From positions 1 to 23,149 of IMG/VR virus record IMGVR_UViG_3300031702_000051: DNA of 23,149 nucleotides; one strand, written 5' to 3'. Source of the DNA: a virus. Positions 6,755-22,936 of this stretch are shown piece after piece; positions within the stretch are counted from its first letter, which is position 1; every line of letters starts with the position of its first letter. The notes beneath the pieces were generated by a model, which saw only the letters and a program-made list of their open reading frames with translations, was not told where the DNA came from and ran no database searches. A program made the position numbers and the translations under genes.

Positions 6755-6762
6755 GTTATACA

Positions 6763-6790
6763 GTTATATCCATTTTAAGTTAAATGTCAA
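6763..6790 (-). promoter_or_regulatory. Leftward sigma70-like promoter, proximal
   Basis: On the minus strand a perfect -35 TTGACA (plus 6785-6790) is separated by 16 bases from TATAAC (plus 6763-6768), a 5/6 match to the -10 consensus. The expected transcription start is near 6755-6757, directly at the start codon of the 74-aa gene. The sequence around both boxes is repeated at the distal promoter, 289 bp upstream. Confidence 0.75.
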
Positions 6791-6837
6791 GCATTATTTT
6801 ACAATTCAAAGTAATTAGTTCAAATTACAATACATTG

Positions 6838-7036
6838 TAAGTGTTTGCGATCTAGGGTTTTGAGTGTGGCACTGTAAGTGTTGGCGATTTAGCCAACTAG
6901 AGGCTACCAGTTAAGGTGTTTGGCAGATAAGCCATTTAGAGGAAGGTACTTTAAGTGCTTTTTCCTTTACTAGGGGCAGTTAGTTAAAGGCATTTAAGTG
7001 CTAGGAGGTAATCTCCTTATATGAACACCTTAAGTG
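6838..7036. repeat. Series of six TAAGTG-type repeats in the leftward leader
   Basis: TAAGTG or TAAGGTG occurs at 6838, 6875, 6912, 6952, 6995 and 7031, spaced 36-43 bp. At least three copies lie beside small stems: GTTGGC-GATTTA-GCCAAC (6880-6897), TGGC-AGATAA-GCCA (6921-6934) and AGGAG-GTAAT-CTCCT (7003-7017). On the leftward transcript each unit would read as a stem followed by CACTTA. The series lies between the two leftward promoters. It may be a protein-binding array or an RNA element of the long leader; nothing in the sequence decides between these. Confidence 0.55.
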
Positions 7037-7050
7037 AAACTAACAGATCA

Positions 7051-7079
7051 GTTATATCATGTGGTATTGAAATTGTCAA
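7051..7079 (-). promoter_or_regulatory. Leftward sigma70-like promoter, distal
   Basis: On the minus strand TTGACA (plus 7074-7079) and TATAAC (plus 7051-7056) are 17 bases apart. The surrounding bases (CAGTTATATC and GTCAAGC on the plus strand) match the proximal promoter, so one looks like a copy of the other. Transcripts starting near 7043 would carry a leader of about 290 nt containing the TAAGTG repeats. Confidence 0.75.
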
Positions 7080-7151
7080 GCTCTATTTATTAGCATGTCG
7101 CATTTAGGTATGAACATGTCCCGTGTGAACCTCCTATGATCGTAGCTTCTC

Positions 7152-7192
7152 TGTGTATAAGTCTGTGTGTATGTGGATAACTATGTGTATAA
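7152..7192. promoter_or_regulatory. Cluster of three DnaA boxes, candidate replication origin
   Basis: TGTGTATAA (7152-7160), TGTGGATAA (7172-7180) and TGTGTATAA (7184-7192) are all perfect matches, in the same orientation, to the reverse complement of the DnaA box TTATNCACA. The middle one is the high-affinity form TTATCCACA. TGTGTATTA at 7239-7247 is one base off. An A/T-rich run lies at 7249-7262. The cluster sits in the divergent intergenic region, a usual place for an origin. Binding of host DnaA is inferred. Confidence 0.6.
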
Positions 7193-7602
7193 CTCCTGTG
7201 TTTTACCTAAAGTGGTTTACAGCTTGTTTTTCACCTTCTGTGTATTAGCACATATATAATAACGCATGTAGGGGTGGTGGCCCCTGCCCACGGGTGGCTG
7301 ATCGCTCGCTATATCGTGCGCATTATGCATAGGATATCGCATACACATGCATTAAACATCGAAGATGTTGCACTTTATATGCTCCACAGCCCCTATATAC
7401 TCTGTATATGGTAAGTGATTACCTAACATGGAACATATTCAGTGCCGCACCAAAGGTGCCGTGTGTCATGTGAGAGAGATTTGAGATTTGTGGGACTACA
7501 AATAGACCCCACCAAAGGTGTTACAGATACTACCCCCCAAATGGCATCGGTCATCGAAGATGCAACACATGTATTGAACAATGATATTGTTAAGGTCGAT
7601 CT

Positions 7603-20458: not shown

Positions 20459-20882
20459 TCAAATAGAATTATTTATTGAGGACATAGAGTTATATGAAGC
20501 ACATCCTGAGTGTGAGGACACAAAGGTATGCTCCAAGTGTAATCATACTCTACCTGTGACAGACTTCAGCCCCGTAGGTAAGGGCGGTTATGTACGGCAT
20601 GAGTGTAGAGCCTGTAGTAATGAGTTAACTAGAGTGCGTAAAGGGCTTAAGGAATTACATGGTCAGCCACCTGAGGGGTATGAATGTCCCGTGTGCTTAT
20701 GTGATGAAGAGAGGGCTGCTACTGGTGGGCCTAGTAACTCTGCTTGGGTTCTTGACCATGACCATGAGACAGATGATTTCAGGGGCTGGCTATGCCATAG
20801 GTGCAACAGAGCATTAGGTTGTTTCCATGATGATGTTGCACGAATGAAGAGAGCAATTAAATACTTAAGGGGTAAGCTATGA
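20448..20882 (+). CDS. Recombination endonuclease VII-like nuclease (144 aa)
   Basis: It would resolve branched DNA (Holliday junctions) before packaging, as T4 gp49 does. The family core is VLDHDHETDDFRGWLCHRCNRALGCFHDD at about 101-129, with catalytic His/Asp (103-106) and zinc-binding Cys residues, followed by KRAIKYL. An N-terminal zinc-ribbon-like pair (CSKCNHTL, CRACSNEL) and CPVCLCDEE precede it. The ATG at 20448 overlaps the helicase end by 11 bp with GGGAGG upstream; a TTG at 20439 is possible. The stop overlaps the polymerase ATG. Confidence 0.88.
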   Translation: MVFDQIELFIEDIELYEAHPECEDTKVCSKCNHTLPVTDFSPVGKGGYVRHECRACSNELTRVRKGLKELHGQPPEGYECPVCLCDEERAATGGPSNSAWVLDHDHETDDFRGWLCHRCNRALGCFHDDVARMKRAIKYLRGKL

Positions 20883-22936
20883 TTACTATATTGGATGTAG
20901 AGAACACCACCTGTAAGAGGGATGGCAAGCAGCACTTTGATCCCTTTGAGTCAGAGAATGAGTTGGTTATGATAGGTATGCTATCTGAGAGTATGAGTTA
21001 TTACTCTGATGAAACTGTAGTTACCTTTACTCATTCAGATGAACCGCCCACTTGTAATGGAAATATAATAACGCAGAACATATTAGATGCCACCACCCTA
21101 CTGGTCTGTCACAATGCAGTGCATGACCTTACGTGGATATGGGAATGTGGCTTTGTGTATGACGGAAAGATATACGACACCATGTTAGGTGAGTACATAC
21201 TTAACAAGGGTGTCAAGTCTCCTCTTAACTTAGGCTTTGTATCTGCACAGTATGAACTGGAAGAGCAGAAGCTTGATACTATGTCCGACTACTGGAAGTC
21301 TGGTACATCTACAAAGGACATTCCCTTTGATGAACTGGACGAGTACCTACGCTACGACTTGCGCTCTACTCTTGGTGTCTACAAGAAACAGATGGTAAGG
21401 TTTGCCAATGACGAGAACAGTAGTATGCAGTCTGTACTAGATCTTACTATGGATACTTGCTATGAACTGGCACTGATCTATAAGCGAGGCATCAAGGTAG
21501 ACTTAGTAGAGTTGAACAAAGTAAAGACTGAGTTTGAAGAAGAGAGGGCTACTCTATCAGAGGAACTTATGGAGTTTGTTGAGGAGTTGATGGGTGATAC
21601 ACCCGTAAACATTAACTCACCAGAGCAGCTATCAGCACTAGTGTTCTCTCGTAAGCCTGTAGATAAGAAGTTGTGGGCCTTGAGTGTTAATGCATTCATG
21701 TCTGACTCAGCATTCAAGGATACTATGAAGTCTCAGTGTGGCCCTGTCTACAAGACTAAGGCTAGCAAGTGTGTCATATGCAATGGCACTGGCATGGTTC
21801 AGCATCTTACTAAGAAGGGTACGCCTCGTAAGAACAAGAACATCTGTCAGTCATGTGATCGAAAGGGCTATGTACTCACACAGACTAAGGTGTTGGCAGG
21901 ACTTAAGTTCACACCACCCAAGGCTACATGGGCTAGTGCTAGTGGCTTCAGTACAGGTAAGGGAATCCTTGAGACACTTGAGGCTACGGCTAGAGGCAAG
22001 GGCATGGAGCGTGAGGGTAACTTCTTAAAGAAGCTGCGTAGACTTAACGCTATTGAATCATACCTATCCTCCTTTGTAGGTGGCATAGAGAAGTACACTA
22101 AGGCAGATGGTATGCTGCATGTACAGTTGACTCAGCACATTACCTCTACTGCTAGGCTGTCAGGACGTAACCCTAACATGCAGAACATGCCAAGGGGTGG
22201 TACGTTCCCTGTTAAGCGTGTGTTTATATCACGATGGAAGGGTGGCAAGATAATGGAGGCTGACTTTGGGCAGCTAGAGTTTCGTGTAGCAGCATTTCTT
22301 TCACAGGATAAGACTGCTATAAAGGAGGTGTTAGAAGGATTTGATGTACATCAGTACACCGCAGACATCATAGGTGGGGCAGGACAGCCTATAGCTAGGC
22401 AGAACGCTAAGGAACACACCTTTGCCCCCTTGTATGGTGCTTCAGGGTATGGTCGTACTCCAGCAGAGGCAGAATATTATACTCACTTCCTATATAAGTA
22501 TCGTGGAATAGCAGAGTGGCACAAGAGGTTAGCCACTGAAGCCCTGTCAGAGAGAAAGATTACAACACCTTCGGGTAGGCAGTTTGCTTTCCCCGATGTG
22601 TCAAGGAGGCGTGATGGTACTGTTACAAACTTTACCATGATTAAGAACTATCCTGTTCAGTCATTTGCTACGGCAGATATAGTGCCAGTTGCACTGCTGA
22701 TGATGGAGAAAGTGATGAAGGAGAGAGGTTTATTATCTTGCATAGTTAACACAGTTCATGATAGTATGGTAGTGGATGTACACCCTGACGAGCAGACTGA
22801 TATGTTAGCAGTCGTAGTGGAAGTAGAGAGTAAGTTAGTAAGCACAGTAAATAAGCTGTGGGATATTGATTTTAACTTACCTCTATCACTGGAAGCTAAG
22901 ATGGGAAACAATTGGTTAGATCAAGTAGATTGCTAA
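20879..22936 (+). CDS. Family A DNA polymerase with 3'-5' exonuclease (685 aa)
   Basis: This is the phage replicative polymerase, comparable to T7 gp5. The exonuclease domain shows TILDVEN (Asp6, Glu8), HNAVHDLTW (about 78-86) and YLRYDLRSTLGVY (about 156-168). The polymerase motifs are A, ADFGQLEFRVAAF (about 460-472); B, RQNAKEHTFAPLYG (about 504-517); and C, TVHDSMVVDV (about 624-633). The motif B residue equivalent to E. coli Phe762 is Phe. SARLSGRNPNMQNMPRG is also typical. An unusual insertion at about 297-328 carries CVICNGTG and CQSCDRKG, like a DnaJ-type zinc finger. The ATG overlaps the previous stop (ATGA). Confidence 0.95.
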   Translation: MITILDVENTTCKRDGKQHFDPFESENELVMIGMLSESMSYYSDETVVTFTHSDEPPTCNGNIITQNILDATTLLVCHNAVHDLTWIWECGFVYDGKIYDTMLGEYILNKGVKSPLNLGFVSAQYELEEQKLDTMSDYWKSGTSTKDIPFDELDEYLRYDLRSTLGVYKKQMVRFANDENSSMQSVLDLTMDTCYELALIYKRGIKVDLVELNKVKTEFEEERATLSEELMEFVEELMGDTPVNINSPEQLSALVFSRKPVDKKLWALSVNAFMSDSAFKDTMKSQCGPVYKTKASKCVICNGTGMVQHLTKKGTPRKNKNICQSCDRKGYVLTQTKVLAGLKFTPPKATWASASGFSTGKGILETLEATARGKGMEREGNFLKKLRRLNAIESYLSSFVGGIEKYTKADGMLHVQLTQHITSTARLSGRNPNMQNMPRGGTFPVKRVFISRWKGGKIMEADFGQLEFRVAAFLSQDKTAIKEVLEGFDVHQYTADIIGGAGQPIARQNAKEHTFAPLYGASGYGRTPAEAEYYTHFLYKYRGIAEWHKRLATEALSERKITTPSGRQFAFPDVSRRRDGTVTNFTMIKNYPVQSFATADIVPVALLMMEKVMKERGLLSCIVNTVHDSMVVDVHPDEQTDMLAVVVEVESKLVSTVNKLWDIDFNLPLSLEAKMGNNWLDQVDC

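Follow-up and report, generated by a model that had tools for sequence, protein, structure and literature searches.

A row of mini-hairpins at the divergence point of a marine phage genome

Short inverted repeats crowd the point at which the leftward packaging genes and the rightward early genes of a marine phage diverge, which raises the question of whether they are kept for their own sake and, if so, in which nucleic acid they fold and what they do there. The window, by which we mean the whole 23,149-nt stretch analysed here (IMG/VR record IMGVR_UViG_3300031702_000051), covers part of the genome of a marine podovirus of the HMO-2011 type. Its TerL is 69–70% identical to those of Roseobacter phage CRP-1 and Puniceispirillum phage HMO-2011, and other genes match portal, DnaB-like helicase, primase, family-A DNA polymerase and tyrosine integrase, so that terminase, DnaB-type helicase, primase and DNA polymerase, the genes by which we judged membership of the group, are all represented. 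The DNA polymerase A gene (20879–22936) encodes the mid-protein DnaJ-like CXXCXGXG zinc region typical of the HMO-2011 group. Phages of this type form one of the dominant marine phage groups (PMC9038755). The words 'hairpin' and 'promoter' never occur in that study, a non-exhaustive search of the literature on HMO-2011-type phages found no mention of a hairpin array, and the early control region of these phages appears to be unstudied.

Between 7355 and 8829 we listed 32 non-overlapping mini-hairpins with stems of 4–6 bp and loops of 3–4 nt. They span the control and promoter region (non-coding part of the array, 7355–7748), the first rightward gene (7749–8375, plus strand), which encodes a 208-aa protein of a family of unknown function and carries its hairpins within the coding sequence, and the leader and start of the next genes. 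All 12 perfect hairpins with a 6-bp stem and a 3-nt loop in the window fall inside this interval. The first-pass annotation had placed six triloop stems in the control region, and each was found: aacatc-GAA-gatgtt (7355–7369, GNA loop), atatac-TCT-gtatat (7395–7409), gcacc-AAA-ggtgc (7447–7459), cacc-AAA-ggtg (7510–7520), catc-GAA-gatg (7552–7562, GNA loop) and aacaat-GAT-attgtt (7577–7591); the tetraloop hairpin that it named, ggtaa-GTGA-ttacc, is present at 7410–7423. The stems that it described are real, but their extent was understated, as the array continues through the gene to ~8.8 kb and recurs throughout the family. Before the start codon follow taccc-TTTA-gggta (7624–7637, TTTA tetraloop), attac-TAT-gtaat (7682–7694), which overlaps a −10 element, and ataac-GGA-gttat (7733–7745).

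Within the gene the hairpins are taccc-TAAA-gggta (7778–7791, a TTTA loop on the minus strand), attccc-AAA-gggaat (7827–7841), catc-GAA-gatg (7862–7872, an alternative to gatg-CTG-catc at 7869–7879), aaacc-TAAA-ggttt (7913–7926), gagat-GAAC-atctc (7960–7973), caaa-GAC-tttg (7979–7989), cttatc-GAA-gataag (8012–8026), tggct-TTC-agcca (8052–8064, a GNA loop on the minus strand), gctttc-AAG-gaaagc (8082–8096), atcttc-GTAA-gaagat (8125–8140), aagc-GAA-gctt (8167–8177), cacc-GAA-ggtg (8195–8205), ccact-GAA-agtgg (8239–8251), gatatc-GTA-gatatc (8268–8282), attgca-GAG-tgcaat (8295–8309) and aactgt-GAA-acagtt (8321–8335), with GNA loops at 8012, 8167, 8195, 8239, 8268 and 8321. The stop codon is covered by gcttac-AAA-gtaagc (8363–8377), an identical copy of which ends the array at 8815–8829. 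Between these two copies lie cctttaGGGtaaagg (taccc-TTTA-gggta, 8505–8519), upstream of the next ORF, gcttc-TAAA-gaagc (8568–8581), acagg-AAT-cctgt (8703–8715) and cactt-TTC-aagtg (8762–8774).

In 7355–7591, hairpins with a stem of at least 4 bp and a 3-nt loop numbered 6 against 1.10 expected, a count reached by 1 of 500 dinucleotide shuffles. With stems of at least 5 bp there were 4 against 0.28 expected (0 of 500 dinucleotide shuffles), more than chance would give. Over 7300–7748 the latter class gave 6 against 0.49 expected (0 of 500 shuffles), while the adjoining non-coding stretch 6755–7299 showed no enrichment (0 against 0.65 expected). A 63-aa ORF with a GTG start, called mechanically, includes 7442–7633; we found no evidence that it is a real gene. 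Folded as single-stranded DNA, 7355–8354 reached z = −7.9 on the plus strand and −7.2 on the minus strand; a DNA control stretch gave −3.5, and RNA folding of the plus strand of 7355–8354 gave −5.8.

The first-pass annotation had also reported a core followed by a TGCA- or GCAA-like run in three copies. Three copies of TCGAAGATG do lie at 7359, 7554 and 7864, and TCGAAGATG with TGCA is a genuine local repeat. The core ATCGAAGATG(NN)GCA occurs at 7358, 7553 (1 mismatch) and 7863, and with up to 2 mismatches there are 6 matches against 0.4 expected. Across the family, however, it is the hairpin and not this sequence that is kept.

Inside the array, a sigma70-like promoter, TTGACA-18-TACTAT (7660–7689, plus strand), was recognised as a consensus match only, with a near-identical copy at 9062–9091. 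The surrounding 39-nt promoter-like blocks (7659–7697 and 9061–9099) are 92% identical and stand before two early genes, and the array region is probably transcribed from 7660 onwards. Several early ORFs are preceded by a cassette of GGGGATRTCCCC usually followed by TACCCTTTAGGGTA (7602–7637, 8478–8515, 8790–8828, 9119–9156 and 9481–9518); GGGGATRTCCCC has 13 matches on both strands with 2 mismatches allowed, against 1.7 expected. The Shine-Dalgarno sequence GGA(G) of the first gene sits in the C(GGA)G triloop hairpin at 7733–7745, and in HMO-2011 and CRP phages comparable hairpins with a GGA loop are found before start codons.

The hairpins are selected independently of the protein

The first rightward gene contains 8 hairpins with a stem of at least 5 bp and a 3-nt loop, against 0.96 ± 0.94 in synonymous-codon shuffles that preserve both the protein and the codon usage (0 of 200). 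Of 30 genes examined in this way, nearly all show the excess over codon shuffles, and further gene sets gave 26–34 against ~4 (most HMO-type genes) and 31–39 against ~5 (genes of the L159 type). The 600 nt of non-coding DNA upstream of the gene, taken over 46 loci, held 447 hairpins against 100 expected. Relative to the start codon, hairpins are dense between about −400 and +800 and tail off towards +1800, as would be expected of the single element over control region and first gene that the first-pass annotation had envisaged. Its view that the pattern is no by-product of the protein also stood: protein sequence and codon usage are ruled out as the source by the codon shuffles and by a clade that has the homologous gene but lacks the array (see below).

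The stems change in a manner that keeps them paired. In an alignment of 14 helices in 30 sequences (A6), 69.8% of cells were paired against 28–43% in slid controls, and 120 cells were doubly changed against 63 ± 5 in shuffles. Homologous positions carry different stems, such as ttgaag-GTA-cttcaa, aagttg-GAA-caactt and tagttg-GAA-caacta. In 33 close gene pairs, third-position divergence was lowest in stems (0.12), intermediate in loops (0.16) and highest outside (0.20), and 38 hairpins had been altered yet were still perfect. In phages of the HMO and CRP types, a conserved non-coding hairpin that is related to the TCGAAGATG-TGCA repeat and followed by TGCAA lies ~170–185 nt before the gene; in ten phages this site reads TTCG–(6-bp stem)–TGCA, then GAAACGGCA in most, and its flanks are conserved. 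All 60 cells of its helix were paired, with 11 double changes and 0 one-sided changes. Scored over all hairpin states, 227 were perfect, 35 had one mismatch and 217 were absent.

The first-pass annotation had proposed looking for loss of the stems in close relatives with a conserved control region. In the part of this comparison that was run, the relative L002 retained every hairpin, among them those at 7355, 7395, 7410, 7447, 7577, 8012, 8052 and 8082, with changes at 0 of 180 stem positions against 27 of 649 elsewhere. The array-less contigs L094 and L210–L214 would be an unfair counterexample because the similarity of L094 to the window ends at ~7264, so that its control region is not conserved. 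Nucleotide similarity of both L094 and L095, relatives of ~81% identity, stops at this point, where the L095 contig also ends, and the early module may be swapped as a whole. Together, these data show that the hairpins are selected as nucleic acid structures, independently of the protein, and that the conserved entity is the hairpin and not a single sequence family.

The array accompanies one gene family

HMO-2011 (gp74), CRP-1 (gp01) and CRP-345 (gp01) likewise have their hairpin density peak on the first rightward gene, and the array is present in dozens of IMG/VR contigs retrieved with different query proteins. In array-rich loci the densest ORF nearly always belongs to one protein family of roughly 190–290 aa, the exceptions being L054, L135, L150, L156 and L184. 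Profile comparison linked the window-type and CRP-type subfamilies (E 3e-12) and the HMO-type and CRP-type subfamilies (E 7e-8), and more weakly the window-type and HMO-type ones (E 4e-5), while the proteins share 17–21% identity across subfamilies. These comparisons show that the array has remained with a single gene family while its members diverged deeply.

No comparable peak was found in the searched stretches of CRP-2, CRP-3, CRP-9, CRP-207, CRP-603, CRP-738, HTVC033P, T7 and N4, and a scan of prokaryote genome contigs found no relative. We rejected a host-driven origin, as CRP-1, with the array, and CRP-2 and CRP-9, without it, grow on the same host strain, FZCC0023. The clade formed by L094 and L210–L214 has the homologous gene in the same place, the L094 protein being 36% identical to that of the window; this gene showed no array, or at most weak enrichment of hairpins. 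This clade serves as a natural control: since it keeps the gene, the encoded protein does not require the hairpins, and since L210–L214 have no array and other HMO-2011-type phages show none in the stretches searched, it is dispensable for the replication of such phages in general. Around its homologous gene the clade has three copies of CCATTGACGGAATTCAGTCAACGAA (L213: 2714–2756, 3523–3565 and 3840–3882), which is also found in L210. A phrog_586-type protein (11652–12083 in the window; its counterpart is HMO-2011 gp02, whose annotation notes similarity to L5 gp82) is encoded by the array-bearing genomes that were compared, whereas every array-less one lacks it, which is a phylogenetic correlation only.

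Sequence searches of the array-gene protein against Pfam, PHROGs, NCBIfam and PDB gave no match above the cut-off. The AlphaFold2 model of the window protein shows a helical domain (residues 36–146, pLDDT ~80–92 per ten-residue block over most of it), a disordered linker and a C-terminal helical pair. It had no PDB match at Foldseek E ≤ 0.001 (the best VIA-align Z, 4.3, is not meaningful), and its best viral structural match was S4S2E1 (205 aa, probability 1.0, E 6e-3).

Pairing and loops indicate folding of single-stranded DNA

Perfect 6-bp stems, counted as non-overlapping hairpins in 60 genes, exceeded the codon-shuffle null by 539, whereas stems with one G.T or one A.C mismatch showed excesses of −6 and −16. 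One-sided stem changes in close pairs gave 44 G.T and 43 A.C. Because an RNA role should tolerate G.U, yet G.T fared no better than A.C, the array does not appear to act as RNA; G.U is not accepted as a pair, as it would be in a structured RNA.

The loops tell the same story. Enrichment was 6.2-fold for 3-nt loops and 1.3- and 1.7-fold for loops of 0–1 nt, a count in which, unlike the non-overlapping 60-gene stem counts, a hairpin with a stem of at least 6 bp and a 3-nt loop is also counted at loop 5. Among non-coding triloops, 91 of 156 were GNA or its complement (expected ~4 of 34), and TTTA or TAAA made up 36 of 126 non-coding tetraloops (0.4 expected). As a DNA loop, TTTA has special stability. 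Triloops of the GNA type, in which G and A form a sheared pair, are the stable DNA loops found in N4 promoters (PMC4496689) and Streptomyces telomeres (PMC7205883). UNCG-type loops numbered 0 among the non-coding array loops, and GNRA was modestly enriched. No strand preference was seen, GNA and its complement being enriched 30.6- and 17-fold in non-coding and 17.0- and 17.9-fold in coding DNA; therefore, either both strands fold or orientation is irrelevant. Stems of 5, 6 and 7 bp numbered 364, 335 and 134, with a further 37 of 8 bp, and 547 of these 870 hairpins had 3-nt loops. Adjacent hairpin centres are mostly 24–36 nt apart, with no 10.5-nt periodicity in the spacing that would betray helical phasing.

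Watson–Crick-only pairing, together with DNA-stable loops on either strand, thus indicates that the array is selected for folding of single-stranded DNA on both strands. Structured RNA was ruled out by the lack of G.U tolerance and the DNA-type loops, and double-stranded dyad binding sites by the slight enrichment at loops of 0–1 nt and by arms that share no sequence.

Possible roles of the array

We tentatively propose, with a confidence that stops a little short of even, that the array is a cis-acting DNA element whose ~30 hairpins fold once strong underwinding or strand separation affects the region, and that it is a candidate replication origin or strand-opening zone. Melting of the array region would be brought about by negative supercoiling and early transcription, perhaps aided by the encoded protein, and both melted strands would fold into strings of hairpins. 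These might slow re-annealing and resist single-strand nucleases, while the gaps of ~15–20 nt between them could become loading sites for the phage DnaB-type helicase and primase, or for the encoded protein, which we guess may bind the hairpins. The candidate origin lies at the first early gene, where the cumulative GC skew of HMO-2011 reaches its minimum (53–54 kb), a position confounded by its coincidence with the switch in transcription and gene direction. The origin reading has against it that neither a known domain nor a structural match was recognised in the encoded protein and that ~30 hairpins in 1.5 kb are far above the number used by known origins. In its bolder form, which we regard as possible but doubtful, the proposal is of a new class of overlapping information, in which the DNA of a coding gene is selected on both strands as a continuous string of single-stranded hairpins, a self-opening platform for replication or loading that may be read by the gene's own protein.

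Functions tied to other processes were also weighed. A virion RNA polymerase could use the array as an early promoter with many sites or as a loading zone, since its geometry is that of the N4 promoter hairpins (PMC4496689) and it overlies the early control region. We think this unlikely: sequence methods recognised no RNA polymerase relative in the large structural proteins searched from HMO-2011 (gp22–gp25 and gp49) or in CRP-345 gp40, array-less phages carry similarly large genes in the same place, and ordinary sigma70-like promoters are present. Moreover, ~30 sites in both orientations, mostly intragenic, are unlike promoters, and no sequence outside the loop is common to them, in contrast to the contact bases that N4 sites have in common. 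A role in protecting or organising single-stranded DNA elsewhere, in recombination-dependent replication, at genome ends or circularisation, or at the start of packaging, seems to us just as improbable. The loop types and compensatory changes are as at Streptomyces telomeres (PMC7205883), but the array is internal: many contigs continue on both sides of it, and it lies within the circular HMO-2011 genome. No homologue of a terminal protein was seen, and several kb separate the array from the terminase genes in HMO-2011 and CRP-1.

The rival that weighs most on methodological grounds, given that hairpins are mostly either perfect or absent, is that template switching in a locally single-stranded region perfects near-palindromes that have no function. 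The joint change of the arms and the need of fold-back for loops of at least 3 nt fit this account, too. However, stems diverge slowly at third positions and are unchanged in L002, as purifying selection, but not arm conversion, predicts; the strong GNA/TTTA loop preference and the persistence of the array on one gene family despite great protein divergence likewise tell against it, and we hold it to be distinctly unlikely. Least probable of all, in our judgement, is a role in early mRNA (stability, translation control, avoidance of Rho, or a sponge for an RNA-binding protein). The probable transcription from 7660, the RNA folding score and the Shine-Dalgarno sequence in a hairpin loop would suit it, but several hairpins lie upstream of this best promoter-like site, G.U is tolerated no more than A.C, the dominant loops are GNA and TTTA with their complements about equally enriched, UNCG is absent and GNRA shows a modest excess, and both strands score strongly as DNA.

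Whether or not the strand-opening proposal holds, a large and deeply conserved DNA-structure element overlaps a coding gene, and array-less relatives provide natural controls, so that the array enables a direct test of DNA opening and replication start in such phages. If the proposal is true, folding of DNA, not of RNA, can constrain codon choice over a whole gene.

Comparison with known folded-DNA elements

Folded single-stranded DNA is the recognised form in REP elements (by TnpA-REP), integron attC sites and the plasmid Frpo single-strand promoters. These are single elements with a conserved site sequence, and to our knowledge none of them is a dense intragenic array of sequence-unrelated hairpins; REP elements were all that a non-exhaustive literature search for comparable coding-region arrays returned.

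Streptomyces telomeres resemble the array in being rows of short single-stranded DNA hairpins with GNA-type loops and covarying stems: they have GCA/GGA and CTTG loops that resist single-strand nucleases, and they undergo compensatory changes (PMC7205883). They comprise about six palindromes in ~180 nt at DNA ends (PMC7205883), whereas the array has ~30 hairpins in 1–2 kb, many of them intragenic, and does not lie at a replicon end. Dedicated proteins act on the telomeric hairpins, and no Tap or Tpg relative was seen in array phages. The N4 promoter hairpins, likewise located in an early region, share the 5–7 bp stem and 3-nt loop, which is closed by a sheared G:A pair; their stem bases may vary while paired, and they extrude at physiological superhelicity with the help of SSB (PMC4496689). 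However, the N4 promoters are three single sites whose contact bases are conserved, and the phage brings a virion polymerase of 3,500 aa (PMC4496689), whereas the array has dozens of sites in both orientations and no recognised polymerase, and its stems and flanks differ from hairpin to hairpin, apart from the one upstream site with conserved flanks. Lambda ori lies inside the early gene O, has repeated sites and is activated by transcription and negative supercoiling (PMC5043065), which recalls a candidate origin within an early gene in phages whose DnaB-type helicase needs loading. Its four sequence-specific 19-bp iterons are bound by O dimers (PMC5043065), while no iteron family was found over the array gene, where the arms are mostly unrelated.

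Apparently, the array works like known folded-DNA sites, yet it fails one tested defining feature of each named family: it falls outside them because it is not at an end, has no conserved contact bases, no iterons and no G.U pairing. There is a real chance that it is a new class of element among functional DNA hairpins.
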